Origin: Flavihumibacter solisilvae
GTDB taxonomy: Bacteria > Bacteroidota > Bacteroidia > Chitinophagales > Chitinophagaceae
Length of the DNA stretch: 59,967 bases
Assembly: GCF_000814475.1 (NCBI RefSeq)
Contig: NZ_JSVC01000012.1
Coordinates: forward strand, 1 to 59,967
Reading direction: 5' to 3'
Shown here: positions 48 to 25,000 of the stretch, in pieces
Layout: each line of letters begins with the position of its first letter
How positions within the stretch are numbered: the stretch's first letter is position 1
Position numbers and translations under genes: made by a program
The notes under the pieces: model-generated
Database searches by the model: none
What the model was told of the DNA's origin: nothing
The model's input: the letters and a program-made list of their open reading frames with translations, nothing else

Positions 48-2720
48 ATGGCAAAATGGGACTTTATAACCTACCTCCTGAATCCACGTAACTGGGGCCT
101 GCCCCTGCTGGTCATTTTTGTGATCAGCATCGCCGGGGTTACATTCACCGGCGTTCATACTTATACAGAAGCGCCTCCAATCCCCTCTTTCATTGCAGCA
201 AACAATGAAACCATTTTTTCAAAGGAAGAGATCCTGGACGGACAGGCTGTTTTCCAGCGATATGCGCTGATGGAATATGGCAGCATGTTCGGGGATGGCG
301 CCAATCGCGGCCCGGACTTCACTGCTGAAGCATTGCACTTTGTTACCGAAAGGATGAACGATTATTACAGGGCACGGATCAATAGAAATGTCAACTCCAG
401 CCTGGTGGAGAAAGGAATACCTGAACAGGTAAAAGCGGAAATCAAGCTTAACAACTTTAAAGAATCAGCTAACACGGTAACCCTCTCCGATGCGCAGACC
501 TTTGCTGCAAAGGAGCTTGTTGCATATTACCACCAGAAATTCACGGATTCCTCGTTCCCGGGAGCGTTCAGTCCAGCCGGATATATAACCGACTCTGCAT
601 CTCTAAGATCATTGTCAGCCTTCTTTTACTGGGGTTCCTGGGTGTGCGGAGTATCAAGGCCGGGAGAAAAATACAGCTATACGCACAACTGGCCCTATGA
701 TCCGGAAGCGGGCAACACGCCTGGTTCCGCAATCATTCTCTGGAGCATCATCGGATCGCTCGCATTGATCTTTGGACTGGGCATCGTACTTTATTATTAT
801 GGCAAACTGGAAAAGCTGGAAGACAGCTCCTACACCAAAAAGGCACAGCCTTTCATGTCGCGGGATGACGTCCGGAACTTCCGGCCCGCTGCCATCCAGA
901 AAGCCACCTATAAATTCTTCTATACGGCCATCCTACTATTTACAGTGCAGGTGCTTGCTGGCGTACTGACTGTACATGATTTTGTTGGCTTTGTCAGGTT
1001 TTTCGGAGTGGATATTTCAGAGACGCTCCCCATCACCGTTACGCGCAGCTGGCATGTACAGTTATCCCTGTTATGGATCTCCGCGTGCTGGATAGGCGCT
1101 TCATTTTTTATGATGTCACTTATTTCCCCAAACCAGTCCAGGTCGCAGGTGACGCTGGTCAATACCGTTTTCTGGCTCACCGTTCTTCTTGTCGCGGGCT
1201 CATTTGCAGGTATGCTGCTGGGTCCCAATGGCGTGCTTGGGAACTACTGGTACTGGCTTGGAAACCAAGGGTGGGAATATGTGGAGCCGGGCAAACTCTG
1301 GCAGGTAATTTTGGGTATAGTATTCGTAATCTGGGCAATAATCATTTACCGCGGCATCCGGCCGGTAATGAAACTGAAACAACCCTGGGCCTTACCTAAC
1401 TGGCTGGTATATGCGACCTTCAGCATCATCCTGTTGCTGGTTTCCGGTTTTATTGCAACACCGAAAACTAATTTCGTAATCGCTGATTTCTGGCGCTGGA
1501 TGGTAGTGCATATGTGGGCTGAAGCATTCTTCGAAGTATTTACAACCGTGCTGATAGGATATTTCATGGTGGTAATGGGGCTCGTCAGCAGGAATGCCGC
1601 CATTCGCGTTATATACCTGGCCACGTTGTTGTTCCTGGGTTCGGGATTGCTGGGCATCTCCCACAACTTCTACTGGAACGCGAAACCGGTATTTACTATG
1701 GCACTTGGGTCCGTGTTCTCGACTTTGCAGGTTATCCCGTTGATTTTACTTACCGTGGAAGCCTGGCGATTCAGCAAGCTGCCGCGAACGCTCGAAAACG
1801 GGAACGGGACCAACGGTAATCCGACCAAAAAATTCGGTTTCCAGGAGGTGATCCTGTTTCTTGTAGCAGTCAATTTCTGGAACTTTTTCGGTGCCGGCGT
1901 ACTTGGCTTCATCATCAATCTCCCCATTGCCAATTACTATGAACATGGCACTTATCTCACTGTTAATCATGGGCACGCCGCACTGATGGGCGTGTACGGC
2001 AACCTCGCCCTCGCCGCAATTTTATTTTGTTGCCAGTTACTGTTCAAAGCCGAAACGTGGAAGCCTAAACTGGTCAGGACCGCTTTCTGGTCTATCAATA
2101 TAGGGCTGGTGCTGATGGTCCTGCTTGATCTCTTCCCTGCTGGCATCTGGCAATTCAACACAGTTACAGAACATGGATTATGGTATGCGAGGAGTCACAA
2201 TTTTATTGAAAGCACCGGCTTCCAGGCACTAACCTGGCTGCGCATCATAGGTGGCTCACTGTTTACTGTTGGCGGGGTGATCCCATTGACATGGTTCATA
2301 GTCAGCAATAGAAAGGGCCTGAAAAAAGATGAGGCCCCTGTAGTTACACCACAGGCCGGCAAACCACTGGTTTACTCATGTTCCGGCTGTTCCAGCGCTG
2401 CGCAGATGGCCAATCATTTAGCCATCCAGATGGACCGCGACGGCATTGCAGAAATGTCGTGTATTGCCGGGGTTGGAGGCAATGTGAAGAAACTGGTGCG
2501 CACTGCGACTTCAGGCAGAAGGATCATCGTGATAGATGGTTGTCCGCTCGCCTGCTCCAAAGCCTGCCTTGCCAATCACAATATTGTTCCGGACCAGCAT
2601 TTTGAGCTCACGGGCTTCGGAGTAAGTAAAAAACAACAGGAGGACTTTGATCCAGTACAGGCAGCTGAAATTTCAATATTGATACGGGAGAAACTAAAAA
2701 CCTATGACAACAGTCTATAA
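48..2720 (+). CDS. norB: qNor/NO dismutase-like heme-copper oxidase with C-terminal DGC domain
   Basis: An integral membrane protein of the quinol-type nitric oxide reductase (qNor) family, which turns NO into N2O. It has an N-terminal helix, a periplasmic domain (about 40-225) and the multi-helix NorB core (about 226-755). There is no CxxCH, so it is not cNor. Visible ligands are His336 (low-spin heme, SWHVQL), His488 and Glu492 (HMWAE), His539 and His641/His643 (NHGHAAL). The second His of the usual GxxHH motif is Asn540. The quinol-site motif keeps His310 and Phe318, but Glu is Gly314 and the late Asp appears to be Gly736. These changes are those reported for NO dismutase (Nod), so oxygen-forming dismutation of NO is possible but unproven. 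Residues 773-870 form a DGC domain with Cys778, 781, 805, 832, 836 and 840 (DGC at 830-832). Its 890 residues exceed the usual 750-800 for that reason. It leads a four-gene operon. Confidence 0.85.
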   Translation: MAKWDFITYLLNPRNWGLPLLVIFVISIAGVTFTGVHTYTEAPPIPSFIAANNETIFSKEEILDGQAVFQRYALMEYGSMFGDGANRGPDFTAEALHFVTERMNDYYRARINRNVNSSLVEKGIPEQVKAEIKLNNFKESANTVTLSDAQTFAAKELVAYYHQKFTDSSFPGAFSPAGYITDSASLRSLSAFFYWGSWVCGVSRPGEKYSYTHNWPYDPEAGNTPGSAIILWSIIGSLALIFGLGIVLYYYGKLEKLEDSSYTKKAQPFMSRDDVRNFRPAAIQKATYKFFYTAILLFTVQVLAGVLTVHDFVGFVRFFGVDISETLPITVTRSWHVQLSLLWISACWIGASFFMMSLISPNQSRSQVTLVNTVFWLTVLLVAGSFAGMLLGPNGVLGNYWYWLGNQGWEYVEPGKLWQVILGIVFVIWAIIIYRGIRPVMKLKQPWALPNWLVYATFSIILLLVSGFIATPKTNFVIADFWRWMVVHMWAEAFFEVFTTVLIGYFMVVMGLVSRNAAIRVIYLATLLFLGSGLLGISHNFYWNAKPVFTMALGSVFSTLQVIPLILLTVEAWRFSKLPRTLENGNGTNGNPTKKFGFQEVILFLVAVNFWNFFGAGVLGFIINLPIANYYEHGTYLTVNHGHAALMGVYGNLALAAILFCCQLLFKAETWKPKLVRTAFWSINIGLVLMVLLDLFPAGIWQFNTVTEHGLWYARSHNFIESTGFQALTWLRIIGGSLFTVGGVIPLTWFIVSNRKGLKKDEAPVVTPQAGKPLVYSCSGCSSAAQMANHLAIQMDRDGIAEMSCIAGVGGNVKKLVRTATSGRRIIVIDGCPLACSKACLANHNIVPDQHFELTGFGVSKKQQEDFDPVQAAEISILIREKLKTYDNSL

Positions 2721-3156
2721 ACTTCCATCAGATTCTGCAACGATCAAAACAGAGGTGGTTTGTCCTACCGATGCCAATCCAATGGGTATGCTACTTGGGG
2801 GGCGGCTGGTGGAATGGATGGACATAGCCGCAGCAATTACTTCCCAGACACATTCAGGAAGGGTTTGTGTAACGGCATCGATCAACAAGGTCGATTTCAT
2901 AGCTGCGGCGAATATCGGGGATATCATTTCTATCCAGGCGAAGGTGACAAGGGCTTTTGTTACCTCGATGGAAGTTGTAGTATATGCATACTCAAAAAAA
3001 GTACTGACGGGACAAAAGTACCTGGTCAGTGAAGCGTACTTCACTTTCGTCGCACTCGATGATTCAGGCAAAGCTACTGCAGTCATTCCGCTGAAGCCGG
3101 TAACCCAGGAAGAGAAAACAGATTACCATGAGGCATTGAAAAGAAAGCAGAGATGA
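2704..3156 (+). CDS. Acyl-CoA thioesterase, hotdog fold (YciA/BFIT-like)
   Basis: A 150-residue single hotdog-domain protein that probably hydrolyses acyl-CoA in the cytoplasm. The motif NPMGMLLGGRLVEWMD (about residues 26-41) matches the signature of the YciA/acyl-CoA hydrolase group, with the Asn/Asp and GG positions typical of its active-site helix. Further hotdog-type strands follow (residues 55-125). Its start overlaps the end of the upstream NO reductase-like gene by 17 bases, so the two are almost certainly translated from one mRNA. Why a thioesterase sits in this operon is not evident from the sequence; repair of nitrosative damage to thioesters would be pure speculation. Family assignment is firm, substrate unknown. 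Confidence 0.85.
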   Translation: MTTVYKLPSDSATIKTEVVCPTDANPMGMLLGGRLVEWMDIAAAITSQTHSGRVCVTASINKVDFIAAANIGDIISIQAKVTRAFVTSMEVVVYAYSKKVLTGQKYLVSEAYFTFVALDDSGKATAVIPLKPVTQEEKTDYHEALKRKQR

Positions 3157-3584
3157 ACACAACGATAATTGGTTTCCTGGAACAGCAGACCTGTGCAACG
3201 ATCTGCTGCATTGATGAACATAACGCGCCCTACTGCTTCAATTGTTTTTATGTATTTGAACCGGCAGAGGGCCTGATCTATTTCAAGTCTTCGGAGCACG
3301 CATACCATACTACATTAATTGAAGCCAACCCGGTTGTCGCCGGAACCATACTTCCGGACAAACTGAATAAGCTGGCGACCAAAGGAGTTCAGTGGCAGGG
3401 AGAAATCCTGGATGTCACTAATGCATTGGCGCTGGATGCTGATACTATTTACCATCGCCGTATCCAGATAGCACGCGCCATCAAGGGAAAAGTTTACACT
3501 ATCCAGCTCAATGAAATCAAAATGACAGACAGCCACCTCGGGTTAACCAGGAAACACATGTGGACGAGGGACAAAGTAAAATAA
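3153..3584 (+). CDS. Pyridoxamine 5'-phosphate oxidase-like FMN-binding family protein
   Basis: A 143-residue protein resembling the split-barrel PNPOx-like flavoprotein superfamily (YhbP/general stress type). The features used are the N-terminal helix followed by a strand pair (about 10-40), the stretch YFKSSEHAYHTTLI (about 48-61) typical of the flavin or F420 phosphate-binding region, and a second barrel half with QWQGEIL (about 80-86). The start codon overlaps the upstream stop (ATGA, 4 bases), so it is translationally coupled to the thioesterase. The likely role is a small cytoplasmic flavin- or heme-binding reductase. A split-barrel flavoprotein next to an NO-metabolising enzyme is plausible for redox or NO chemistry, but that is inference. 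Confidence 0.7.
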   Translation: MNTTIIGFLEQQTCATICCIDEHNAPYCFNCFYVFEPAEGLIYFKSSEHAYHTTLIEANPVVAGTILPDKLNKLATKGVQWQGEILDVTNALALDADTIYHRRIQIARAIKGKVYTIQLNEIKMTDSHLGLTRKHMWTRDKVK

Positions 3585-3589
3585 TCAAC

Positions 3590-5329
3590 ATGCATACATT
3601 TCATATCCCGGTAATGGGATTGGCTTACACGGTCGACAGCCCTATCAAGGTAGCCCGTTTCGGAATCTCTTCAGTGATCTCAATAGTTGAGGACAGGCTG
3701 CTCGAAATGATGAGAAAGCACTACTATCCTACTATCGGACAGGAGTATACTCCAATAACAGTGCTGGAAGAAAACTACAGGGAGAAAAGGATCACCGACT
3801 ATCTCAACCTGGTGAATACCATTGTGGCATCACAGGTTGAGAAGCTGAGGAATGCCGCTTTTGAGAAAGGTTCAGAAATAGTAAAGTATTTCGAAATGCT
3901 GCCGGAGGGTAGCCTGGTGAAGAACCTATACCGGAAAATGATCAATACAACAAATGCCATTGAGAAACTTGACCTGCAGGCTTTCCTGCGGAAACAGGTA
4001 AAGCCCGGCAGCATTGATGTGAACATCATGACAAAAACGGTGGACCCGATTACTGCGCTGAAGGGCTATGTGAACTGCAACTTAAACTGTTCGTCCCTGG
4101 TATTTTCTGCGGGTATGGATCCAAAGCTTTACAATTACCTCGAGAGCTGCAACCAGTTTGATGCTGATGATGAAGGCAACTTCAACAAGAAAGTGATCGT
4201 AAAGGTCAGTGACTATCGGTCTGCGTTGGTACAGGGAAAATACCTGGCGAAAAAAGGGATCTGGGTGAGTGAGTTCAGAATTGAATCAGGATTGAATTGT
4301 GGTGGACACGCATTTGCAACAGAAGGATACCTTTTAGGGCCCATTCTTGAAGAATTCAAGCGCAACAGGAAAGAACTGGTAGCTGCTTTGTTTGAATTGT
4401 ACAAAGCTGCTGTTTTGAGAAAGCAGGGAAGGGAACTTACCAATCCGCCGCTACTCAGGTATTCTGTACAGGGCGGTATTGGTACAACCGAAGAAGATAA
4501 GTTACTACGCAACCATTACCAGTTCAAAGGCACTGGTTGGGGTACTCCTTTCCTGCTGGTACCGGAAGCTACAACCGTAGATGAAACTACCTTGAAGCAA
4601 TTGTGCAATGCGACACAAAAAGAAATAGTGCTTAGCAACAGTTCTCCCCTGGGCGCAAGGTTTCACTACCTGAAAGGCACCAGTGGTGAAGCCGAAAGAT
4701 TGTCGCGCATCGCGAAAGACAGACCCGGTAGTCCATGCACAGAAAAACACCTTGCTTTCAATACTGAGTTTACTACAGAGCCGATCTGTACTGCTTCACA
4801 CAAATACCAAAAATTAAAACTGGCACAATTGCAATCACTCAATTTGCCCGAAGCAGAATATGAAAGGCAGCGAAGCAGCGTGGTGGAAAAGGAATGTTTG
4901 TGTGTGGGACTTAGCAATTCAGCTGCAATCAAATATGAGGAAAAATTCGTCAGGACATTAACTGCGGTAACTATTTGTCCTGGTCCGAATATTGTCAACT
5001 TTTCCCGGGTCGTCTCGCTTCAAACGATGACAGATCATATCTATGGCCGCACTGATATCCTGACCAATTCCGGCAGGCCGCACATGTTCATTGCTGAGCT
5101 GCGCCTATATATCGCATACCTGAAGGAACAACTGGAGAATGATAGTTACTCGGACCAACTTTCAAAAAGAATGAAGTATTATTCAGCTTTTATCCAGAAC
5201 CTGAGAGAAGGGATTGAGTATTACAGGAAAATGTCGAATACAATCACTGAGTCGCAGGAAAAGTTTATGGATGATCTGCGGGAAGCGTCAGTGGAGCTGG
5301 ATCTTCTTTCTCTGAAAGAACTTCAATAG
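3590..5329 (+). CDS. Conserved hypothetical protein, possibly a TIM-barrel enzyme
   Basis: I do not recognise this 579-residue cytoplasmic protein with confidence. The ATG at 3590 is preferred over the in-frame codon at 3560, because 3590 begins 5 bases after the upstream stop. It has no signal peptide and no membrane segment. The middle contains NLNCSSLVFSAG, GLNCGGHAFATEGY and YSVQGGIGTTEED followed by GTGWGTPFLL. The Gly-rich VQGGIG element resembles phosphate-binding loops of FMN TIM-barrel enzymes such as the glutamate synthase or nitronate monooxygenase type. That is an inference, not a match. About ten Cys are scattered through the protein. As fourth gene of the NO-linked operon it may act with the reductase. 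Its last 65 bases overlap the 3' end of the convergent TPR gene. Confidence 0.6.
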   Translation: MHTFHIPVMGLAYTVDSPIKVARFGISSVISIVEDRLLEMMRKHYYPTIGQEYTPITVLEENYREKRITDYLNLVNTIVASQVEKLRNAAFEKGSEIVKYFEMLPEGSLVKNLYRKMINTTNAIEKLDLQAFLRKQVKPGSIDVNIMTKTVDPITALKGYVNCNLNCSSLVFSAGMDPKLYNYLESCNQFDADDEGNFNKKVIVKVSDYRSALVQGKYLAKKGIWVSEFRIESGLNCGGHAFATEGYLLGPILEEFKRNRKELVAALFELYKAAVLRKQGRELTNPPLLRYSVQGGIGTTEEDKLLRNHYQFKGTGWGTPFLLVPEATTVDETTLKQLCNATQKEIVLSNSSPLGARFHYLKGTSGEAERLSRIAKDRPGSPCTEKHLAFNTEFTTEPICTASHKYQKLKLAQLQSLNLPEAEYERQRSSVVEKECLCVGLSNSAAIKYEEKFVRTLTAVTICPGPNIVNFSRVVSLQTMTDHIYGRTDILTNSGRPHMFIAELRLYIAYLKEQLENDSYSDQLSKRMKYYSAFIQNLREGIEYYRKMSNTITESQEKFMDDLREASVELDLLSLKELQ

Positions 5330-7028
5330 TCTTCCTTGCTTTAGCCAATCTGGCTTTCCGGTTTTTCTCGACAAGAGTATCGCTTGTCCATTTTTCCAAC
5401 TTGTGATGCAGGGGCACCAGCATTGACGCAATGGCAGCCAGTGCCAGTAACATCAGGACAGGGGAATGCTGCGTCATTTTGTCAAGGTAAGGATGAAGCA
5501 GCAGGTTAATAAATTCAAATACAAGCAATAGTCCAACAACACCAAGAAACTTTATAACCGCTGCACTCGTAATAAAACTACGGCTTAACAAAAGAAAGAG
5601 GACAGTACCTGTAACCAACACAACTGCTATCAACAGGTACTGAATATTGCGATCCCTCGCGGCCGCATTCTCTGCCATTTCAGCTTTGACCTGTTGTTGC
5701 CGCAACTGTTCGTTCAGGGAAAGCATTTGCATGCGGCTGATTCTTTCACTGTTGAATAGGCTGTCCTGCAGAATCACCATTTTCTTCTGGTATTTGTAAG
5801 CACTATCGGAGTTCCGTTTACTGTCATACAGTGCCGAGAGCAGTTTGCTTGCTGCAATCTGGTATACAAGGAAGTTGTTCGCCTGGTCGAGATTATATCC
5901 TTTGGTGGCATAATAAATTGCAGAGTCTGATTCATTGTAACGATCGAAATGCTCAGCATATTCCAAATAACTTCTTGCCAGCAGTCTGAAGTTTTTTGCT
6001 TCCGTATTGAGCTGGAACGCCTTCCTGAAGTATTCAGTTGCCAGGGCTTCTTCTCCCCGCTTCGAATAAACAATGGCCAGTGTGGCTTCACCACCCCCGC
6101 TTCCATCCGGCCTGGTGAAAGGGTCGGGTGTTTTTTCCATCGCCATTTTTGCTGTAAGCCACTTTTGAACATAGTCATATGCAGAATCAAGGATATCTAG
6201 TTGTTCATACGATTTGCCTTTGTCCATAACCGCGCTGAAATATTCACTCCTGTCGGGTAAATCTTTTGACACTTCCTCCGCTCTGGTAAAATAACCGATT
6301 GCCTCCCGGTATTGGCCCTGGTTGCGATAAACCATTGCAATACCATTGTATGCCCTGGCCATCCAAAACGGATCATTCAACTTTTCCGCCTTCGCCAAAG
6401 CTTTAAAATTTGTCTCCAGGGAAGAAGGATAGTCGCCTGCCCACCACAGAAGGTAAGCCAGGTTGACCATGTCAAGAATCAGAATGTCTTCAGGAAACTG
6501 TCCCATATTCATGCGCGTAAGTCGTAACCCTTCGCGACCATAGTACAACATGGAATCGAGCATGCCCCCCTGCTTTGCCTTGTCTGCCCTTGCCCAGCAA
6601 TCCTGCACCTGGAACAACTGCGTAGTTATGGCTTCGTACCTGCTTTCCTGCCGGATATTGTTTAACCCTTCATCGAACCTCAAACTGTCCCAGATAAATC
6701 CTGACCGCAGGGCCTTATCCAGGTAGTCCAAAGCGACTTTTTTACTATTCTTAAGTGAAAAAATACGACTGAGATCGTACAGGAAATAGGCATTACTGGT
6801 TTCGAACAAAGTCCGGTATTTCGGTTTGTCGGCAGCTTTCAGATGCTGGTATGTCCGTTCAAAGTCCTGGAGGATAGCAGCATATTTATCGGAATTTTGC
6901 GACTTTGAGACTTCCTCTAGCAGGGCGGCCTGTTGAAGAAAATAAGTTTTGAAATCAGGTTCTTCCTGGGCATTTGTGATGAACCCACAAATCAGTAGGC
7001 CGAAAATGAATATGACTTTGAAGAGCAT
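5265..7028 (-). CDS. TPR-repeat protein with C-terminal membrane segments
   Basis: A 587-residue envelope protein. It has an N-terminal signal peptide (about residues 1-20, ending near TNAQ), then tetratricopeptide-like helical repeats over residues 40-420 (for example AYNGIAMVYRNQGQYREAIGYF). A short coiled-coil follows (about 430-455, rich in Q, R, E), then several hydrophobic helices (about 460-550) and a charged tail. The layout resembles Bacteroidota sensor proteins in which periplasmic TPRs precede a membrane anchor and kinase or LuxR output, but no kinase, LuxR or other output domain is present. The start ATG lies at 7026-7028. It runs convergently with the upstream operon and overlaps its last gene by 65 bases. 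Function unknown; protein-protein interaction or sensing is likely. Confidence 0.75.
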   Translation of the reverse strand: MLFKVIFIFGLLICGFITNAQEEPDFKTYFLQQAALLEEVSKSQNSDKYAAILQDFERTYQHLKAADKPKYRTLFETSNAYFLYDLSRIFSLKNSKKVALDYLDKALRSGFIWDSLRFDEGLNNIRQESRYEAITTQLFQVQDCWARADKAKQGGMLDSMLYYGREGLRLTRMNMGQFPEDILILDMVNLAYLLWWAGDYPSSLETNFKALAKAEKLNDPFWMARAYNGIAMVYRNQGQYREAIGYFTRAEEVSKDLPDRSEYFSAVMDKGKSYEQLDILDSAYDYVQKWLTAKMAMEKTPDPFTRPDGSGGGEATLAIVYSKRGEEALATEYFRKAFQLNTEAKNFRLLARSYLEYAEHFDRYNESDSAIYYATKGYNLDQANNFLVYQIAASKLLSALYDSKRNSDSAYKYQKKMVILQDSLFNSERISRMQMLSLNEQLRQQQVKAEMAENAAARDRNIQYLLIAVVLVTGTVLFLLLSRSFITSAAVIKFLGVVGLLLVFEFINLLLHPYLDKMTQHSPVLMLLALAAIASMLVPLHHKLEKWTSDTLVEKNRKARLAKARKTIEVLSEKEDPAPLTLPADHP

Positions 7029-7106
7029 GAGGCTTCCGGATAGCAGCTTGGTATAAATTTAATCATAATGGACTTCTTTAACAATACATTAGCCGCGAAT
7101 CCTTTA

Positions 7107-7126
7107 AAATGACCGAACGGTCATTT
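7107..7126. promoter_or_regulatory. TetR-type palindromic operator, copy 1
   Basis: A near-perfect inverted repeat, AAATGACCG-AA-CGGTCATTT, with 9-base arms around a 2-base centre. GACCGnnCGGTC-type palindromes are typical of TetR/AcrR-family repressors. It abuts TATCTTTG at 7126-7133, which matches the Bacteroidota -7 element TAnnTTTG on the plus strand, so binding would occlude a promoter firing to the right. No TetR gene lies in the window, so the regulator must be encoded elsewhere. A second copy of the core lies at 7235-7246. Confidence 0.6.
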
Positions 7127-7133
7127 ATCTTTG
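7126..7133 (+). promoter_or_regulatory. Candidate -7 promoter element TATCTTTG
   Basis: This matches the Bacteroidota sigma-A -7 consensus TAnnTTTG exactly. It would start transcription near 7140, directly before the hairpin at 7142-7216. No convincing -33 TTTG at normal spacing was found, because that area is occupied by the TetR-type palindrome. Confidence 0.4.
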
Positions 7134-7141
7134 TGCAAGAT

Positions 7142-7221
7142 TAGTGAAGGCGGAGAAAGAATTAACAGGCAGGCAAAGGACTAAAAGTATTCAACAAAAT
7201 CTGCCGCTCTTCACTATTTTT
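7142..7221 (+). ncRNA. Candidate small structured RNA or attenuator hairpin
   Basis: TAGTGAAG (7142-7149) pairs perfectly with CTTCACTA (7209-7216). GCGG (7150-7153) pairs with CCGC (7204-7207) across a bulged T, and AGA with TCT across a bulged G. This gives about 15 pairs enclosing a loop of about 43 bases, followed by five T (7217-7221). With the TAnnTTTG element just upstream, this could be an RNA of about 80 nucleotides ending at an intrinsic terminator, or a leader attenuator for the genes downstream. No known RNA family was recognised. Confidence 0.3.
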
Positions 7222-7234
7222 CTATCCAATATAT

Positions 7235-7246
7235 GACCGAACGGTC
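7235..7246. promoter_or_regulatory. TetR-type palindromic operator, copy 2
   Basis: GACCGAACGGTC is identical to the core of the operator at 7107-7126 (ATGACCGAACGGTC is shared) but has shorter symmetric flanks. The centres are 124 bases apart. It lies 14 bases after the hairpin T-run and 62 bases before the small ORF at 7309. It may govern a second promoter for the downstream genes, or act with copy 1 by looping. Confidence 0.55.
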
Positions 7247-7308
7247 TGTTATGCAGAATCTCCCGCCCGCAGTTCTTTTTCTCGTTTAATACATAAAATA
7301 TTTTCAAA

Positions 7309-7494
7309 ATGGAAAACAATAATAGAATTGAGGTCCTGCTGTTCTCAAATGTTTACCTCTCTTACTCTTACAAACAGGAATTTATCAACTGGTTTAGTGA
7401 AACCGTACAGGTGGTCTTAGGGCAACAGGAGAAAACCACTCCGAAGCTAACTGTTCCTCTATTACAGGAACTGCCCGGCATTTATATGTCATAA
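7309..7494 (+). CDS. Small hypothetical protein (61 residues)
   Basis: This short ORF has an ATG start and a plausible amino-acid mix (MENNNRIEVLLFSNVYLSY at the N-terminus). It has no signal peptide, membrane segment or motif I recognise. It is the only coding candidate between the TetR-type operators and the redoxin gene, 69 bases before the latter. If it is not real, 7029-7563 is a 535-base non-coding region holding the two operators, the promoter element and the hairpin. The ribosome-binding region is A-rich without a clear Shine-Dalgarno, as is common in Bacteroidota. Confidence 0.35.
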   Translation: MENNNRIEVLLFSNVYLSYSYKQEFINWFSETVQVVLGQQEKTTPKLTVPLLQELPGIYMS

Positions 7495-7563
7495 TGAGCA
7501 GAAAAATCCGAACTTCCTTCTTTCAGGGTTAGGCTCCGTGATTGTTTCAGATAATACTATTAT

Positions 7564-8577
7564 ATGAAAACAATAATTGTTGCCGTTGCCATCGTGTTGG
7601 CCAGTAGTTATAAGCCTGCCAAACCCGAACCGTCCTTAAAGGGCGCGTCTGGATGGATCAATTCACAACCGCTGCAGCTAAAAGATCTGCGGGGGAAAGT
7701 GGTGCTGGTTGACTTCTGGACTTTTACCTGCATCAACTGGCGGCGTACAATGCCGTACATCCGCGAATGGGAGGCAAAGTACCGGAAGGCAGGACTTGTA
7801 GTAATAGGTGTACACACACCTGAATTTAACTTTGAATACGATACAGGAAATGTTAGCAAGGCAGTCAGGGAAATTAACATTGTTTACCCCGTTGCTCTTG
7901 ACAACAACTACGAGATCTGGAATTCGTTTTCCAATCAATATTGGCCTGCCTTGTACCTTCTGGACGCGAAGGGAAAGCTCAGGTACCAGAATTTCGGGGA
8001 AAGTGATTACCTGGAAGCTGAAAGGATGATTCAACGGCTCTTAAAAGAAGTATCGAAAACCGACGCGTTCGAAGAACCAAAGGAAGTGCAGGGCACGGGC
8101 ATTGAAGTTGCTGCCGATTGGGCCAACCTTGCCTCACCAGAAAACTTTCTTGGCTATGAACGCACCCAGGGATTTGCATCGCCGGGAGGAATACGCGCGG
8201 ATAAGGCTGCACAATATATGTTTCCCCGTATGCTTAATCTTAATTATTGGGCGCTGTCGGGCCAATGGATCATCGGAAAGGAACATGCGCGTTCTGTCAA
8301 TGCACATGGAGTAGTGAAGTATCGCTTTCATGCGCGTGACCTGCATATGATCATGGCACCATCTGCACCTGGTTCAACTGTCCGCTTTCGCATTCTGATA
8401 AACGGTAAGCCTCCCGGAGAAGCGCATGGTCTGGATACAGATGCCGATGGCAATGGAGTAGTAACCGGCCAGGGTATGTACCAACTGATCCGTCAGCCAG
8501 GCGCCATCTCCGACGCAGAATTTGAAATTGAATTTGAAGATGCCGGTGTGGATGTTTTCGATTTCACATTTGGTTAA
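7564..8577 (+). CDS. Redoxin with DipZ-like C-terminal domain, CxxC altered to CxxW
   Basis: A 337-residue extracytoplasmic protein with a short N-terminal hydrophobic segment (1-15). It has a thioredoxin-fold domain of the TlpA/DipZ group (about 25-155) and a C-terminal beta-sandwich (about 190-337) like the C-terminal domain of DipZ proteins (FRILINGKPPGEAHG and following). The active-site segment is WTFTCINW: Cys56 is present but the second Cys of the usual FTCINC motif is Trp59. Without a resolving Cys it cannot do classical intramolecular dithiol exchange. A monothiol, peroxiredoxin-like or binding role is possible. The CcdA-like membrane domain of full DipZ is absent. It lies upstream of the metallo-hydrolase gene in the same direction, 98 bases apart with a CRP-type site between. 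Confidence 0.8.
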   Translation: MKTIIVAVAIVLASSYKPAKPEPSLKGASGWINSQPLQLKDLRGKVVLVDFWTFTCINWRRTMPYIREWEAKYRKAGLVVIGVHTPEFNFEYDTGNVSKAVREINIVYPVALDNNYEIWNSFSNQYWPALYLLDAKGKLRYQNFGESDYLEAERMIQRLLKEVSKTDAFEEPKEVQGTGIEVAADWANLASPENFLGYERTQGFASPGGIRADKAAQYMFPRMLNLNYWALSGQWIIGKEHARSVNAHGVVKYRFHARDLHMIMAPSAPGSTVRFRILINGKPPGEAHGLDTDADGNGVVTGQGMYQLIRQPGAISDAEFEIEFEDAGVDVFDFTFG

Positions 8578-8588
8578 GGCAATACGAT

Positions 8589-8604
8589 TGTGACACAGGT
8601 CACA
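8589..8604. promoter_or_regulatory. CRP/FNR-type operator
   Basis: TGTGACACAGGTCACA is a 16-base inverted repeat with the exact CRP core TGTGA-N6-TCACA. CATCTTTG at 8627-8634 is one base off the TAnnTTTG -7 element and would start transcription near 8640. The site centre would then fall about 44 bases upstream of the start, close to the class II activation position. The regulated gene would be the metallo-hydrolase starting at 8676. Confidence 0.5.
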
Positions 8605-8675
8605 CAGTTCAGCCCTTTCAACGTTCCATCTTTGTGAAGCATTTGAGCAATAACACAATCAAAAAAAACTTCACA

Positions 8676-9737
8676 ATGAAACAGAACAAAACCGCATTTG
8701 TAAATGCAATATGGTTGAGTGCCATGGTCTTGCTTGGCGCTACCACCTACGGACAGACTTCATCCCAGCCGGTGCCAGGACTTCCATATTCCAACATGCC
8801 GCAAATTCCGACAATCGGACAGCGGATTTCCAAATACCAGCCAATAAATGAATCAGCCAAAGGACCTGCACTTGAACCCAACAAAGGCTATCGGCTGCAG
8901 AAACTGGGCCGCGATCTTTACATGATCACTGACAATGTGTACCAGTCGATGTTCATGGTTTATGACAAAGGCGTTGTTGTAGTGGATGCTCCCCCACCTT
9001 ACGAGCAGTACATTAAAAAAGCCATAGCTGAAGTGACAGATAAACCAATAACCCACGTTGTATATAGTCATTCGCACACTGACCATATCGGTGGAACGAA
9101 GAACCTGGAACTGGGTAAAGACGTGGCCATCATTGCCCACGACGAGACAAAACGATTACTGCAACGGGCGAAGGATCCGAACCGTCCTGTTCCGACCATC
9201 ACATTCAGCGATAAATATCTCCTGAAAGCCGGCAACCAGACACTGGAGTTGTCATACCATGGGAATGGGCACGAACCCGGGAATATATTCATCTACGCCC
9301 CTGAACAAAAAACGCTGATGGTTGTAGATGTCGTTTTCCCTGGCTGGATGCCCTGGCGCAGGTTTGCGGTATCACAGGATGTTCCCGGATACTTCGCGCA
9401 GGTTGAAGAGATCAATTCAATGAAATGGGAAACACTGGTATCCGGTCACGTGCAACGAACTGGTTCGCACGCTGACGTCGCTCTTCAACTTGAGTTCATG
9501 AATGACCTGAAACGTGAAGCGCTCAAAGCATTACAATCAACGAAACCAGGTGAAGAAATAGATGAAGCTGATAAAAATAACGCCTGGGCGCTCTTCGACA
9601 ATTACATCGACCGGGTTGCCATCCAGATCGTAAATGCGCTGACACCAAAGTGGTCTACAAAGCTCGCTGCCTTTGATGTCTACATCTGGGACCAGGCTTA
9701 TGCAATGGAACAGAGTCTACGGATCGATCAACAATAA
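8676..9737 (+). CDS. Secreted MBL-fold metallo-hydrolase
   Basis: A metallo-beta-lactamase-fold hydrolase. The ATG at 8676 (353 residues) is preferred over the in-frame GTG at 8634, because it follows an A-rich leader and directly begins a signal peptide (cleavage near TTYGQT, residue 26). The zinc motif HSHTDH lies at about residues 132-137 (His132, His134, Asp136, His137). Further metal-ligand candidates are the His of NGHEPGN and VSGHVQ downstream. It acts outside the cytoplasm and its substrate is unknown; the family includes lactonases, beta-lactamases, sulfatases and glyoxalases. A C-terminal helical stretch (about 265-350) extends beyond the minimal fold. A terminator follows directly after the stop. 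Control by a Crp/Fnr-type regulator is suggested by the palindrome upstream. Confidence 0.85.
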   Translation: MKQNKTAFVNAIWLSAMVLLGATTYGQTSSQPVPGLPYSNMPQIPTIGQRISKYQPINESAKGPALEPNKGYRLQKLGRDLYMITDNVYQSMFMVYDKGVVVVDAPPPYEQYIKKAIAEVTDKPITHVVYSHSHTDHIGGTKNLELGKDVAIIAHDETKRLLQRAKDPNRPVPTITFSDKYLLKAGNQTLELSYHGNGHEPGNIFIYAPEQKTLMVVDVVFPGWMPWRRFAVSQDVPGYFAQVEEINSMKWETLVSGHVQRTGSHADVALQLEFMNDLKREALKALQSTKPGEEIDEADKNNAWALFDNYIDRVAIQIVNALTPKWSTKLAAFDVYIWDQAYAMEQSLRIDQQ

Positions 9738-10893: not shown

Positions 10894-12768
10894 TTATTGC
10901 AGCGGAACAAAAGTAAACATCCATTTCACCGGATTCTGCCAGTCGCGGCCCTTGAAAGATCCAATTGGCAGCTTTATCCTCACGGTGTTCCATCCTTTCC
11001 TGAAAGGTACCAGTGCAGGATCCCGGTATTCATAACCTTCATCAATAAGTGGTGTTTCGGGGTTCCCTTTCATTCCACCCTGTTTCCAGTTTGGAGCGTT
11101 AACCGGGTTGTCATTCACCCAGATGGCAGAGTTTTTCTCATCCCATTGTCCAAGGGGTGGAGAATCGGTAGCTGGTGAACGGGAAAGATTATTGAAGCCG
11201 ATCCAACAGGGCATAATTTTAGCCTCGTCGGACCAGAATCTTGAAGTTGCGTACCAGGTTGTATTTTCCTTCGCACAAGACAGCTGTCCCTGGACCAGCG
11301 GTGCCCACCAATGGCGCAGGATGATTGTACCTCCATAAACAGTGGAATCTTTACAACCGGCTTCATGCGGGCCCTCCAATTTCCATTCAATTGCAGCCTG
11401 CTGCCGGTATGGGAATGGCACATTTTTGAAGTAGGTCTCCTGGTGATCGGCCAGGCGTTTCTCGAAAGCTGCAAATTCCTGATACTCGCGACTACCTGGA
11501 TTGCCTATTACCGTTGTCCATTGTCGCGAGCCACCGCCCCGCCAGCTTCTTTCAGCGAAAGCGAGAAGTCCCGGATAAACCGGATTCATGGTAAGAATAT
11601 CCTGTTCCCTGTTCACCCTGCGATCGTGCCACACGCACAATATGGCGCCTTTATGACGGCTGTCGCCAGATTGCTTTCCCGCGAGCTCCCGGTGAAATAT
11701 GGTGACCACAGATTCAAGCGGATCCATATGATTGAGATACAGGTGGCGGGAATCAATAAGAGTTGCATTCGTATCTGCAGGCTCTTCAGCCATCCACAAT
11801 TGCCTGTACGTTTGGGCATCAAGGTTACCCCCGGGACTCCAGCCAATAGTTTCTATTCCCTTTGAATGAATGTAGGACGAAAGGGTTGGAATAAAATCCG
11901 GATTAACGATTTTCACCTCATCGCCACCAATGTGAATGAATTCAAGGTCGTAAGTATCTATGATCTCCCCCATTATCTCTTTCATGATCCGGATACCATC
12001 TTCCGTCTGCATATCAGTTTTCATGGCCCGGCGAAAAGCTCCGCTGTGTCCCGGCATATCAATCTCAGGTACCAGTGTTATATATCTTTCTTTACAATAC
12101 TGAATGAGATCCTTCATTTCATCGGTGGAATAAAATAATCCCTTGTCGCGCTCCATATTTCCGGGTGCGGTCAGCTGCGGATACTTTTTTATCTGCAAAC
12201 GCCAGGCAATGTCTTCCGTCAGGTGAAAATGAAAGATGTTCATTTTATAAGCAGCCATCACATCGATCTGCTGTTTGAGCATGCTTACTGATTGGAAATT
12301 TCTTGCGGCGTCTGTCATGAATCCACGCCATTCGAAAGCGGGGTAATCAGCGATCTCACAGGCGCTGGCGGACTTACCATCGACTAACAATTGCAATAGT
12401 GTACGGGTGCCATTGAAAATACCATGTTGATTCTCCGCTGTCACCACAATACCATTTTTATCTACACGCAACATGTATGCTTCCTCTACAGAAGGAAGAC
12501 CCGTAGTTTGTTTCTGTAAAGTGATGAACTTTCCGCTGCGTTCTCCAGGCATGACTAATGGCAGCTTGTGACCGAACTTCCCGATTTCCGACTGAAGGCG
12601 TTTTGCTTCTTTCAGCAAAATCGTATCTGTGACCGCAATGCCTTTACAATGTTCCAGTGAAAAAGAATCCTGGTGCCACTGGATACTGCGAGGATAAGGT
12701 ATCAATGAAACCTGTGCTGTACTCATCAAAAAACTACAAATACCGGCGATAAAAAAGAGTACTCTCAT
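10894..12768 (-). CDS. GH20 beta-N-acetylhexosaminidase
   Basis: A secreted exo-glycosidase of family GH20 that removes terminal beta-linked GlcNAc or GalNAc. The start at 12768 is an ATG overlapping the sialidase stop (ATGA), indicating translational coupling; an in-frame GTG lies two codons upstream. A signal peptide covers residues 1-19. A GH20 N-terminal domain (about 20-140) precedes the catalytic barrel (about 145-450), with the diagnostic HIGGDE (about 279-284, Asp283-Glu284 acid/base pair) and HFHLTED (about 180-186). A C-terminal beta-sandwich of roughly 150 residues ends the protein and is extra relative to minimal GH20 enzymes. It is the last gene of the sialic-acid operon and would trim glycans once sialic acid is gone. 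Confidence 0.92.
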   Translation of the reverse strand: MRVLFFIAGICSFLMSTAQVSLIPYPRSIQWHQDSFSLEHCKGIAVTDTILLKEAKRLQSEIGKFGHKLPLVMPGERSGKFITLQKQTTGLPSVEEAYMLRVDKNGIVVTAENQHGIFNGTRTLLQLLVDGKSASACEIADYPAFEWRGFMTDAARNFQSVSMLKQQIDVMAAYKMNIFHFHLTEDIAWRLQIKKYPQLTAPGNMERDKGLFYSTDEMKDLIQYCKERYITLVPEIDMPGHSGAFRRAMKTDMQTEDGIRIMKEIMGEIIDTYDLEFIHIGGDEVKIVNPDFIPTLSSYIHSKGIETIGWSPGGNLDAQTYRQLWMAEEPADTNATLIDSRHLYLNHMDPLESVVTIFHRELAGKQSGDSRHKGAILCVWHDRRVNREQDILTMNPVYPGLLAFAERSWRGGGSRQWTTVIGNPGSREYQEFAAFEKRLADHQETYFKNVPFPYRQQAAIEWKLEGPHEAGCKDSTVYGGTIILRHWWAPLVQGQLSCAKENTTWYATSRFWSDEAKIMPCWIGFNNLSRSPATDSPPLGQWDEKNSAIWVNDNPVNAPNWKQGGMKGNPETPLIDEGYEYRDPALVPFRKGWNTVRIKLPIGSFKGRDWQNPVKWMFTFVPLQ

Positions 12769-13934
12769 TTCCACTTTATGTTTTTGAAGACGATCTTACT
12801 GTAGTTGTCATTTTCGAACAGAACGCCTATTTCATTTTTGGAAATGCTGATGATATCTGAGTATGCGGCGTAATCTTTCGCACCAGTTGGCGACTTTGCA
12901 ACGGTGATGTTTTTCTTCCAGGTGTTGCCATCGTCATAGCTGATCCGCAGGGTGAGGTTGTCCCTTTTCTTTTCATCTGCAGCGTTACAAAAAGCGAGAA
13001 CACTTTTCCTTTTGCCATTGTCTATATTCAGGATACTTCCCTGGCAAACAGGATCCGGAAGATTCCGGTCGAAGTAAGTCGTGTCCCAACTTTGTCCGCC
13101 ATTGGAACTCGTGGCCACGATCCGCGACCGCACATCACCTTTCTGGTTACGGATATTCATGATGAGACGACCATCAGAAGCAACTGCAGCCATAGCTTCA
13201 TTACCGCCTTCAAATGAAACATCTTCTGAAAGCTGGAATGTTTTACCATGGTCGTCGGTGTAAAAACCATGCGCCTTGTAATCGGAAAATTGTTTCTGCG
13301 GATCTCCCGCATTATGATTGGCGGCTACATAGATCCGGCCCTTGTATTTCCCGGAACTGAACTGGAGGGCATGACCCGGAGTATTGGCATAACTGCGCCA
13401 GTCCTTAGCACTATTATATGCGGAATTGAATGAAGGTTGTTTGGGATGGTGAACCTGTGTAGTAATGTTCACTGGATCTGACCAGGTGTTACCGCCATCA
13501 GTGGAAGTCTTGTACCATACTTCCCGCACGCCACGTCCTTTGCGCACTTCACCTTCATGATTGTTGCCGGTGTTGTAAAACAGGAAGATCCGCCCGGATG
13601 GATACAAAGGGTCAGTGTAATCAACGACAGGTGCAGGGTTGCCCGCCTGTAATGTATCGTAGTCCACAACAGTCTCCATCCTTCCCCAGGTCCTGCCTTT
13701 ATCGGTTGATTTTTTCAGCACAATATTAATATCGCCGAAATCGCCGGCGCCATGCACGCGACCTTCACAGAAGGCAAGCAGGGTTCCGTTCCTGAGTCCA
13801 ATGACAGCCGGGATCCGGTAACTTTTATGTCCTTCGTTACCGGAAACAAATACAGCAGTTCCTTCCTGCTGGGAGTGGGCAGCAAATACAGTTGCGACAA
13901 GCATCAAAATCAATACGGCACGCTTCATCATCAT
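12765..13934 (-). CDS. nanH: Exo-alpha-sialidase (GH33, BNR repeats)
   Basis: A secreted sialidase that hydrolyses terminal alpha-linked sialic acids. The start is taken at the ATG run at 13928-13934 (MMMKRAVL), giving a signal peptide ending near AHSQ. The RIP motif (SYRIPAV, arginine-triad Arg) is near the N-terminus. Five Asp-box-like repeats follow: STDKGRTW, STDGGNTW, TDDHGKTF, SSNGGQSW and SYDDGNTW. The Glu of EGGNEAM and the Tyr of YAAYSD are in place for the catalytic Glu/Tyr pair, and the last strand is IGVLFEND. Length (389) is normal for a GH33 catalytic domain with no lectin module. It follows the acetylesterase by 10 bases and overlaps the hexosaminidase start. Confidence 0.93.
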   Translation of the reverse strand: MMMKRAVLILMLVATVFAAHSQQEGTAVFVSGNEGHKSYRIPAVIGLRNGTLLAFCEGRVHGAGDFGDINIVLKKSTDKGRTWGRMETVVDYDTLQAGNPAPVVDYTDPLYPSGRIFLFYNTGNNHEGEVRKGRGVREVWYKTSTDGGNTWSDPVNITTQVHHPKQPSFNSAYNSAKDWRSYANTPGHALQFSSGKYKGRIYVAANHNAGDPQKQFSDYKAHGFYTDDHGKTFQLSEDVSFEGGNEAMAAVASDGRLIMNIRNQKGDVRSRIVATSSNGGQSWDTTYFDRNLPDPVCQGSILNIDNGKRKSVLAFCNAADEKKRDNLTLRISYDDGNTWKKNITVAKSPTGAKDYAAYSDIISISKNEIGVLFENDNYSKIVFKNIKWK

Positions 13935-13944
13935 AATAGTGAAT

Positions 13945-15450
13945 TTATTGGTTGCTATTGAGGTAATCAATTTTTAGTTTGAAGGTGGAAGCAGGCAGCA
14001 TTTCGTCATTGCATAAGTTAGCAGTGGTGAATGGCGACCAGCCATAACACACATATCCTGGTTTGCCGGTAAGCGGCATTTCGATCGTAGTGCCTTTGAT
14101 GATGGCGGGCACATCTTTGCCTTCTACGGAAAAACCCCGGGGGAGTTGTGTATCGGTTGTGGTAAGTTGTCTACCCGCATAATTGAAAGTAATTCTAAGC
14201 ATGCCATTCCGGGCTTCTGCTTTAACCGGCAGGGGACCAGAAGGAATGATATCCCTTCCATAAACATCGTGCAATGTCCATCTTGCGAGCCTTTGGCCGA
14301 TATCACGTTTGTTGGTGGGATGCACGTCATTCTTAGCCCCGAGGTCTGAACTTACGGCCATCCCGACATTGGATAGCTCATTGAGCAGCAGGCGTTGTTC
14401 ATTCCTGAATTCCGGCCAAAACTGCGACTGGTACTTTACTGTGTCGATTGACGAAAGCTGTACCCAATAAAAAGGCAGGTCTTGTTGCTTCCATAACTTG
14501 CGATAATCAGCGATAAGAACCGTCATCAGTTTCCTGTATTCCATTACGCGAGGAAGTTCGAGCGAATTGGATTCACCCTGGTAGAAAATAACACCCTTCA
14601 CCTTATGTGATTGCAACAGTTCTATCCCGGCTTTATATGCAAAACCTGGTTTGTAGGCATGGTCAGGTCCTGAGCTATCCGAACCGTTATATTTGTCACC
14701 CAGGTTCTCCTTGCCCCTTTGCCTGGTCCACTCCGGCAGCTCATCATTTTCAAGCCAGTTGCCCCGCGTCTTTGATACAAATTCGTGTTGAAGCGATTCG
14801 TACGAGATAAATGTTTCAATGGGAGCGCCACCGATGGAGAGGTTGATGAGTCCAACAGGAATGTCCTCGCTTGCTGCAATTGCCTTGCCGAAATAATATG
14901 CCACCGCACTCATCGGGCGGACAGTATTGCTGTCGCATTGCTGCCAGGTTCCGCGGTAAAAGTCGTCTTTATTCAATCGCTTCTTAACAGAATCAGTATA
15001 TAAGCTTTTATAAACGTATTTGCCTGCAAAATCAGCATTGAAGAACCGGAGCAGTGGCTGGTTGGTGAGTTGCTGTTCTTCACGGAAATGCATTTCGCGG
15101 GAGAAAGCCCATTCCATATTAGATTGCCCTGTGCAGATCCATACATCACCGATCAATACATTGTTCAATTCGATCCTTTCCCTGCCAGATGTAATGACAA
15201 CCTGTTGCGGCTGCCTGTCAGCTTTCCTTTTTTTGAACAAAACATTCCAGCTTCCGTCGGGTTTTGCTGTTGTGCGTCGATGTTCCCTACCAAATGAAAC
15301 ATTAACACTATTACCGGGAATGCCAGTTCCACCGAAGCTGATGGCCTGGTCGCGTTGAAGCACCATGTTGTCACTAAAAAAACGATGCACCTGCAATTGT
15401 GCTTTCACCACAAGCGGGAACAAGAGTGCCAGCAATATTTTTATTCTCAT
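13945..15450 (-). CDS. Sialate O-acetylesterase (SASA family)
   Basis: A secreted SGNH-type esterase of about 501 residues that removes O-acetyl groups from sialic acids so that sialidase or lyase can act. The start is the ATG at 15450, beginning a signal peptide ending near VKAQ; the TTG three codons upstream is less likely. The nucleophile motif is GQSNMEW (Ser about 110). FYQGESN lies near 290 and the Asp-x-His pair NDVHP near 375-377. These are the block signatures of PF03629-type sialate esterases. Its 5' end overlaps the AGE epimerase gene by about 77 bases, a long overlap for this operon. Confidence 0.92.
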   Translation of the reverse strand: MRIKILLALLFPLVVKAQLQVHRFFSDNMVLQRDQAISFGGTGIPGNSVNVSFGREHRRTTAKPDGSWNVLFKKRKADRQPQQVVITSGRERIELNNVLIGDVWICTGQSNMEWAFSREMHFREEQQLTNQPLLRFFNADFAGKYVYKSLYTDSVKKRLNKDDFYRGTWQQCDSNTVRPMSAVAYYFGKAIAASEDIPVGLINLSIGGAPIETFISYESLQHEFVSKTRGNWLENDELPEWTRQRGKENLGDKYNGSDSSGPDHAYKPGFAYKAGIELLQSHKVKGVIFYQGESNSLELPRVMEYRKLMTVLIADYRKLWKQQDLPFYWVQLSSIDTVKYQSQFWPEFRNEQRLLLNELSNVGMAVSSDLGAKNDVHPTNKRDIGQRLARWTLHDVYGRDIIPSGPLPVKAEARNGMLRITFNYAGRQLTTTDTQLPRGFSVEGKDVPAIIKGTTIEMPLTGKPGYVCYGWSPFTTANLCNDEMLPASTFKLKIDYLNSNQ

Positions 15451-16633: not shown

Positions 16634-16653
16634 GGTTGGAAATAAAAGGTTGG

Positions 16654-17892: not shown

Positions 17893-17901
17893 AACTCAGG
17901 A

Positions 17902-19059: not shown

Positions 19060-19063
19060 GGTA

Positions 19064-20005
19064 TCATGCGTTTACCAGGGATGCCGGTTTGGAACAGTAG
19101 TCTTTGAAGCCAAGACTGGTTACATCCTTTTTGAAATTTTCAAATTCGGCGTCGCTCATATTTTTTACAGGAAGCCGGAATTTTCCGCAATCCAGGTTCA
19201 CCAGTTTCATATATGCCTTCCCGGTTGCGATTCCGCCATATTTTCCCAACAGCCTGATCATATCGATCGCCTGTTGCTGTAATGTACGCGCCTGTGGCTG
19301 GTCGTTGGACTGATAAGCCGCGATGAGCCGGTTATACAAAGGCGCAGCATAATTGAAGGTGCTGCCGACAGCACCTCTTGTTCCCAGCGACAATGCCGCG
19401 AGCATATTTTCATCGCGTCCCCAAAGCATGTCGTACCGGCCATTTTCAAAATTCATACACGACAGGAAATCCATGAAGTCTTCGTGCGTGTATTTGATGC
19501 CTGCAAAGTTTTCCAACCTGCCATGCAAAGTCTTTAGCAGGTCGATCATTGGGAATCCAACACCTGTAAGGACGGGAATATGATAGTAATAGAATGGCAT
19601 GTCCGGCACTTTCGACGCAACTTCAATACAACAAGCTGCAAGCATTTCAACCGATGCAGGTTTGAAATAAAATGGCGCGGTCATGGATACACCATAAAGT
19701 CCAACCGACCTTGCATGCACCGCCAGTTCACAGCAATCAGTAATGCTTGTGCCACCAACAAGTGTCATCACCTTAAACGCTTTGTCATGCCTGCTGCATT
19801 CAGCCCAGGCTTCTGCGACCTGCTTTTTTTCTTCGGTTGACAAAGACGCACCTTCGCCGGTTGAACCGCAGATGAAGGCTCCCTTGACGCCGTTTAATTT
19901 CAGTAGTTTATAGTAGTCGGGTATAACGCCGAGATTAAGGCTTCCATCAGGATGCATAGGCGTGAATGGTGCAGCTATCAATCCTTCCAGGTGTTGAAAT
20001 TCCAT
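19064..20005 (-). CDS. nanA: N-acetylneuraminate lyase (DHDPS superfamily)
   Basis: A 313-residue cytoplasmic class I aldolase that splits N-acetylneuraminate into ManNAc and pyruvate. It shows the carboxylate-binding motif GSTGEG (about 48-53), the catalytic Tyr in YYHIPVLTG (about Tyr141) and the Schiff-base Lys in FAGIKYTHED (about Lys171). Length and spacing fit the family. DHDPS itself is the main alternative, but the neighbours (sialidase, mutarotase, epimerase) fix the assignment to NanA. It lies 48 bases after SusD and 4 bases before the mutarotase gene. Confidence 0.93.
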   Translation of the reverse strand: MEFQHLEGLIAAPFTPMHPDGSLNLGVIPDYYKLLKLNGVKGAFICGSTGEGASLSTEEKKQVAEAWAECSRHDKAFKVMTLVGGTSITDCCELAVHARSVGLYGVSMTAPFYFKPASVEMLAACCIEVASKVPDMPFYYYHIPVLTGVGFPMIDLLKTLHGRLENFAGIKYTHEDFMDFLSCMNFENGRYDMLWGRDENMLAALSLGTRGAVGSTFNYAAPLYNRLIAAYQSNDQPQARTLQQQAIDMIRLLGKYGGIATGKAYMKLVNLDCGKFRLPVKNMSDAEFENFKKDVTSLGFKDYCSKPASLVNA

Positions 20006-20053
20006 TTGATCGTGAATTAGTATAGTAAAATAAATGGGGTACGGAAATAGTAA

Positions 20054-21589: not shown

Positions 21590-21607
21590 TATAACTGAGT
21601 TTGTTTG

Positions 21608-24940: not shown

Positions 24941-24956
24941 AACAGTTTAATTGAGG

Positions 24957-24975: not shown

Positions 24976-25000
24976 AAAGTACAACCTAGAAGGATTCAAC

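Follow-up and report, generated by a model that had tools for sequence, protein, structure and literature searches.

A member of the putative NO dismutase clade fused to a DGC domain in Flavihumibacter solisilvae

Introduction

What would an enzyme with the signature of a nitric oxide (NO) dismutase do in a bacterium whose genus is described as strictly aerobic, with menaquinone-7 (PMC4575449)? The question is raised by a gene near the start of the window, the 59,967-nucleotide stretch of contig NZ_JSVC01000012.1 analyzed here, which comes from Flavihumibacter solisilvae, a species whose type strain, 3-3T, grows on R2A agar (PMC4575449). The gene (positions 48 to 2720; all genes and codons located below are on the forward strand of the window) encodes an 890-amino-acid homologue of the quinol-dependent NO reductases (qNORs) with a C-terminal DGC domain. 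A preliminary description, made from the DNA alone, had assigned it the active-site signature of NO dismutase (Nod) and had suggested that the host dismutates NO to N2 and O2 or detoxifies NO by a nonrespiratory route. The reading that we favor, and hold to be fairly probable, is that the protein is an NO-inducible, quinol-decoupled NO scavenger of the putative Nod clade.

The Nod signature was defined by Ettwig et al. in 2012, with Muricauda ruestringensis included (PMC3413370). It consists of the replacement of the FeB ligand His560 by Asn (PMC3413370, PMC10286720) and of a glutamate near the catalytic center by Gln (PMC3413370). Putative Nods of Bacteroidota, to which the preliminary description had likened the window protein, have thus been known since 2012, and others are reported from groundwater, Sediminibacterium and Algoriphagus among them (PMC10264387), and from lake enrichments (PMC13386854). 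According to the latter paper, from 2026, the enzyme has never been isolated and characterized, which leaves open whether Nod-clade proteins produce O2. Sequences with the substitutions can also fall near unknown qNor-related groups (PMC7338807).

Active-site residues of the window protein

We aligned the window protein with the Geobacillus qNOR 3ayf, whose numbering (Gs) is used below, by means of phmmer (HMMER). Pfam recognized three domains, PF22085 (NorB cytochrome c-like), PF00115 (COX1), and PF08859 (DGC), and no NCBIfam model matched at its cut-off. Histidine is present at Gs 355, 508, 559, 651, and 653, the FeB ligand at 508 corresponding to His488 (positions 1509 to 1511), and Glu512, conserved in Nods and qNORs, is kept as Glu492 (1521 to 1523). 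The CAC-AAC codons of His539-Asn540 (1662 to 1667) pair with Gs His559-His560, so that, as first described, Asn stands in place of an FeB histidine ligand. Two features had escaped the preliminary description, the fused DGC domain and a second Nod-specific change, Gln561 (codon CAG, 1728 to 1730) in place of Gs Glu581. Because Glu512 is unchanged, we infer that position 581 is the glutamate reported as altered in PMC3413370.

The quinol-site equivalents had also been correctly named: Gs His328, Glu332, Phe336, and Asp746 pair with His310 (975 to 977), Gly314 (987 to 989), Phe318 (999 to 1001), and Gly736 (2253 to 2255). The claimed loss of quinol-site residues holds for both acidic ones and does not extend to His310 and Phe318, which are retained. 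In one published set, H328T/E332R was reported in 55 of 88 sequences (PMC10286720). The window protein has the fold, the heme ligands, two FeB histidines, and Glu512 in common with Geobacillus 3ayf, Alcaligenes 28pn, and the NorB of Cupriavidus pHG1, whereas His560, Glu581, Glu332, and Asp746 are all four replaced.

Relatives and phylogeny

One scan of genome contigs gave 129 stretches, of which 112 were confirmed and the best 80 kept as relatives; the patterns used were derived from the query, and one (WMVVHMWA) included residues specific to Nods, so that the sample leans to Nods. Within it, Gs 560 is Asn, like Asn540, and 581 is Gln in all 80 relatives, which also keep His355, His508, Glu512, His559, His651, and His653. 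The Asn/Gln signature recurs in 26 of 26 further Nod loci (window excluded) drawn from genomes of the host's order, and a sequencing error or lone mutation at His539-Asn540 is thus ruled out. Thirty-eight of the 80 have the quinol-site type of the window, His328 with Gly332, and are labeled mostly Chitinophagaceae, Sphingobacteriales, or Bacteroidetes, with one Cyclobacteriaceae, two Scalindua, and one Planctomycetota metagenome-assembled genome (MAG); 41 have Asn328 with Asn or Asp332 (Saprospiraceae, Muricauda, and others), and one has Thr.

Comparison qNORs were taken from plasmids, Bacteroidota genomes, and PDB sequences. When 296 Bacteroidota genomes were searched with a Nod profile at 1e-60, the 28 matches comprised 4 that were Nod-like (1188 to 1385 bits) and 24 that scored lower (406 to 638 bits), 23 of which were placed in the tree, all with His560 and Glu581, the partial L165 being left out. 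The tree (118 sequences, 752 columns, FastTree LG) held 85 Asn560 and 33 His560 proteins, classes defined by residue 560 itself, and the 85 formed one clade with a support of 0.982 and a branch of 0.47; its rows include near-duplicates (e.g., L044/L096 and L026/L097 by first residues), and the counts are not independent. Position 581 is Gln in 85 of 85 Nods and Glu in 33 of 33 qNORs, and the heme and FeB ligand positions checked are conserved in all 85 Nods. Fourteen columns split the two classes (95% of Nods, 90% of qNORs), and seven of them lie between Gs 505 and 581. Around the window protein the tree is poorly supported, with values of 0.12 to 0.98 along the nodes that lead to it, and the 41 rows with His328 are not monophyletic, with 84 tips under their common ancestor. 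Because Asn and Gln are shared by the relatives, with His and Glu in the qNORs, and because the Asn proteins form one clade, the sequence evidence supports well the assignment of the window protein to the putative Nod clade of qNOR-type heme-copper enzymes.

A canonical respiratory qNOR would fit the predicted structure, which matches the qNOR fold, and the identity of about 34% to qNORs. This reading is scarcely credible, and we rule it out on residues and tree: the defining residues tested are absent (N540, Q561, G314, and G736 stand in their places), the second histidine of the FeB pair among them, and the protein falls outside the qNOR group. The alignment and the tree, both proposed as checks in the preliminary description, therefore agree with its assignment, and neither gave the result that it had named as a refutation.

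The same residues bear on two readings that overlap with the one that we favor. A true dismutase, turning 2 NO into N2 and O2 and so furnishing O2 for respiration or oxygenases under anoxia, would carry the signature as proposed for Nod, and without the acidic quinol residues and Glu581 a reductase should run short of electrons and protons, neither of which net dismutation would need. A variant NO reductase would make N2O with an unusual electron donor (for example, a cytoplasmic flavoprotein, a ferredoxin, the DGC domain, or residual quinol at His310/Phe318), leaving NosZ to finish; what speaks against it here is that Asn for the FeB His and Gln for Glu581 occur in every Nod seen and that Glu332 and Asp746 are lost in those seen. 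The N2O-forming route has been argued for ocean qnorB-like genes with the same active-site changes (PMC5723336), and N2O-producing foraminifera with a nod-like nor are cited elsewhere (PMC6636425); our own literature search for foraminifera with nod found none.

Among described systems, the Bacteroidota Nods share with the window protein H560N, the Glu-to-Gln change near the site, and the qNOR fold. Three Muricauda-labeled loci (L063, L067, and L069), which stood in for M. ruestringensis and for the NC10 and HdN1 Nods, belong to the window's clade at 56 to 57% identity; the window protein differs in keeping His328, where theirs is Asn, in its fused DGC domain, and in the palindrome before its gene. 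The Nods of Methylomirabilis (NC10) and HdN1, compared through the 2012 description, share H560N and the Glu-to-Gln change with the window protein and are described as having an impaired quinol site, and the Methylomirabilis nod is reported close to pmo genes (PMC13386854).

Several relatives deserve mention in their own right. In L065, two Nod-type genes stand in tandem; the product of the second shares 41% identity with the window protein, keeps Asn/Gln, and has Met at 328. L079 and L083, on contigs assigned to MAGs of the anammox genus Scalindua, encode Nods with the H/G/F/G quinol-site type of the window; nod has been reported in two Scalindua MAGs (PMC10359470). A viral origin was rejected: a protein-query scan of viral sequences gave no relative, and an alignment-query scan gave one distant contig, L196 (IMGVR_UViG_3300035492_000331), a 231-kb contig listed as viral with a qNOR/Nod relative of 39% identity that is broken or partial, the FeB region being absent from its longest frame. 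A viral NOD-like gene has been reported (PMC8115048).

The Nod-DGC fusion

The putative metal-binding DGC domain spans residues 774 to 875 (positions 2367 to 2672) and scored 111.7 bits against a Pfam gathering cut-off of 27 (E = 2.3e-32). The protein of this family (PF08859, "putative zinc-binding protein") with which it was compared stands alone, whereas this one is covalently joined to Nod. In all 16 relatives in which the junction was read, nod and DGC are separate open reading frames (L012, whose nod frame stops early, and L094 were left out), and none of the 80 kept loci has the two in a single frame. The longest other Nod frame in the order-wide draw has 841 amino acids, compared with 893 here, and no DGC match, and the Nods of three genomes of the same genus (G001, G012, and G013) have frames of 799 to 805. 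The fusion is thus new among the relatives searched here and in our literature searches, which missed most subscription papers and, among the papers listed, turned up neither a Flavihumibacter Nod nor a Nod fused to DGC. A frameshift artifact was rejected as its source, the frame being unbroken across the junction of an assembly in which an error is possible.

Over the domain, DGC is 68% identical to a stand-alone DGC protein on a Klebsiella plasmid (L089). A PDB sequence search returned only two chance-level matches (E = 0.64 and 0.68), and a literature search for a link between DGC and NO gave nothing beyond an H-NOX match in which DGC probably means another thing. In L006 (8419 to 10002) and L017, the DGC downstream of nod lies in longer frames, of 528 and 513 amino acids, the L006 frame also containing a GNAT domain. 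Given a topology like that of qNOR, the DGC domain of the window protein would be cytoplasmic, and it probably binds a metal or iron-sulfur (Fe-S) center and takes part in the same response to NO. The attachment of a small soluble domain, which was seen in no other genome examined, is also what a catalytically weak NO/O2 sensor or regulator with DGC as its output might show. We find such a role very improbable, as the ligand positions are conserved across the Nods and the other Nods seen have no fusion.

A putative NO-responsive regulator and operator

Of a palindromic, operator-like site of 20 bp, TAAGGACAAATTTGTCCTTA, the window includes 16 bp (positions 1 to 16), and a whole, perfect copy lies at 22 to 41 of contig C29 of the same assembly. 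Because the end of C29, when reverse complemented, shares 37 bases with the start of the window, nod would be divergent from the Rrf2 gene of C29, which points away from nod and encodes a protein with cysteines spaced C-X6-C-X5-C. An Rrf2 protein with three spaced cysteines encoded beside its target is the mark of an NsrR-type regulator, and this is what we found, NO sensing and DNA binding being putative. We take the regulator to be a putative NsrR.

The palindrome TAAGGAYAWWWWTRTCCTTA was derived from the regions upstream of nod in relatives and then used as a scan pattern. Leaving aside loci with <100 nucleotides upstream, it occurs in the 150 nucleotides upstream of nod in 23 of the 35 testable loci of the His328 type, compared with 12 of 614 control genes. 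A second host copy, with two mismatches, lies 33 nucleotides from a gene for 449 amino acids that precedes nirK and leads the nirK-norCBQD cluster. In 48 of the 80 loci, of both quinol-site types, an Rrf2 relative is encoded no more than four genes from nod, and NsrR near nod has been noted before (PMC13386854). In having a three-spaced-cysteine Rrf2 protein and a palindrome before both nod and nirK-cnor, the host resembles NsrR/Rrf2 NO-response regulons. In the searches made here, the divergent Rrf2/NsrR-like gene with a palindrome shared with the nirK-cnor cluster is new. The nonrespiratory detoxification proposed earlier fits this arrangement, which suggests that nod is probably NO inducible.

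Denitrification genes in the host and its order

The host assembly (5,407,881 bases in 75 contigs) encodes NirK, an adjoining set for a cytochrome c-dependent NO reductase (cNOR), and a clade II NosZ, norB having been assigned by its COX1 match and residues and norC, norQ, and norD by eye from translations; on paper, its gene content would complete the route from nitrite to N2. Four of the 15 genomes searched in the genus carry Nod, as do 27 of 396 genomes of the order (at least 879 bits; that of G527 is split over two contigs), and eight of the 396 had lower-scoring qNOR-type matches, three of them checked by residues. No genome among the 35 with matches had nod and qNOR together, with two candidates scored in each, a result close to chance.

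NosZ was present in 173 of the 396 genomes (166 of the 350 that were at least 90% complete): all 27 with Nod compared with 146 of 369 without (Fisher 5.7e-11), or, by genus, 16 of 16 compared with 67 of 148 (8.4e-6). These statistics ignore kinship, and the Nod and NosZ draws were taken as the same 396 genomes from their equal numbers and matching handles. NirK exceeded its cut-off in 4 of the 27 Nod genomes, one more scoring 183 bits, below it; full-length NirS occurred in one (G417), PF02239 matching at E 0.001 in 12, 8 of these over its low cut-off; and a close cNorB (at least 76%) was present in 4. Most Nod genomes of this draw therefore have NosZ but neither NirK nor NirS by these searches, a pattern that would suit the scavenging of NO from outside, other NO sources and NOR types being possible too.

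The NosZ association is new in the searches made here and does not favor an N2O-free route. It speaks for the variant NO reductase, together with the presence in the NosZ list of 7 of the 8 qNOR-type genomes and the occurrence near nod in relatives of a ferredoxin (L016) and a flavoprotein-like gene. The co-occurrence may, however, reflect a shared low-oxygen lifestyle and ancestry, and NosZ was also present in 13 of 20 Nod-free genomes of a smaller comparison set; on balance this reading is possible but doubtful. A true dismutase we rate as rather unlikely, with NosZ in every Nod genome and a genus described as strictly aerobic both against it. Nor was an oxygenase found among the seven profiled genes at 48 to 9737 or, by eye only, elsewhere in the window, and beside the lake nods no clear system for consuming oxygen is described (PMC13386854).

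Neighboring genes

Downstream of nod lie genes for an acyl-CoA thioesterase (4HBT; 2704 to 3156) and a YhbP-like protein (3153 to 3584; 105 bits, below the NCBI cut-off of 176), both neighbors of nod in several relatives, and for a 589-amino-acid protein without a Pfam match (3560 to 5329), also a recurrent neighbor. In many Chitinophagaceae-type loci (Pfam was run on L016, L006, and L014 as examples) the order is nod, DGC, thioesterase, sometimes a U32 peptidase and a ferredoxin, the YhbP-like gene, and the gene for a protein of about 600 amino acids. L014 and L044 have a DUF2249/ScdA/hemerythrin gene downstream of nod. The module of DGC, YhbP-like, and ~600-amino-acid genes is not specific to nod, because L103 and L104 have it in stretches without nod.

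The ~600-amino-acid family has conserved cysteines and no Pfam, NCBIfam, or PDB sequence match; its members (in L006, L013, L016, L039, L067, L076, L103, and L104) are encoded near nod in Chitinophagaceae-, Saprospiraceae-, and Muricauda-labeled loci and elsewhere beside DGC. The model of the window's 589-amino-acid protein (predicted local distance difference test [pLDDT] score, 62) bears a weak likeness to the flavin mononucleotide enoyl reductases FabK, PfaD, and FabX. In L016 (4171 to 5926), L006, L008, L013, L014, and L025, genes for a small cytochrome c and a COX1 protein of 458 to 491 amino acids are divergent from nod; this COX1 protein keeps the HH pair and has no His at the position aligned with the first metal ligand, Gs 508, in six of six aligned (Pfam was run on L016 only), and an Rrf2 gene is nearby in four of the six loci. 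Farther along the window, at 10894 to 25794, genes identified by eye as hexosaminidase, epimerase, transporter, NanA-like aldolase, SusC/SusD, and GntR may form a sialic acid utilization locus.

Discussion

We propose that a divergently encoded Rrf2/NsrR-like Fe-S repressor would leave its palindromic operator when NO appears, that the membrane enzyme would then be made, that heme b3 and an FeB coordinated by His488, His539, and Asn540 would bind two NO molecules, and that NO would be eliminated with no electrons supplied through the usual quinol site. The signature, the clade, the predicted fold, the recurrent regulator gene, and the palindrome were all found; NO sensing, metal occupancy, and NO turnover would follow from them. 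If the protein is such a scavenger, dismutation to N2 and O2 has close to an even chance and reduction to N2O, with a different point of entry for the electrons, a chance somewhat below even, other outcomes making up the rest; NO removal is the most likely physiological role.

Several points weigh against this proposal. The quinol site is only half lost by sequence, and the retained His328 and Phe336 equivalents may allow some quinol access. The palindrome was counted in the same upstream regions from which it was built, it precedes nod in only 1 of 41 Asn328-type loci, and at two mismatches genome-wide it has 10 forward sites compared with 15 for a reversed control pattern; loose matches are meaningless because the control matches as often. 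The DGC part of the structure model is unreliable (pLDDT, <50). A second NO enzyme beside the host's cNOR set needs a reason, and the presence of NosZ in all 27 Nod genomes suggests N2O in these cells.

A more specific proposal, improbable as it stands, is that this soil bacterium, aerobic and equipped with NirK, cNOR, and NosZ, makes the Nod-DGC fusion when exposed to NO and so obtains N2 and O2, or N2O by way of electrons from a cytoplasmic DGC, ferredoxin, or flavoprotein module; the protein would then be a regulated, electron-gated Nod, and no other in the present data has a soluble redox or metal domain built in. For the study of the family, F. solisilvae provides what appears to be a type-strain copy of nod, with a plausible NO switch and with cNOR and NosZ encoded alongside it in one genome to serve as internal controls, and the association with NosZ in 27 of 27 genomes is a testable argument that the Nods of the host's order work with N2O, not around it.

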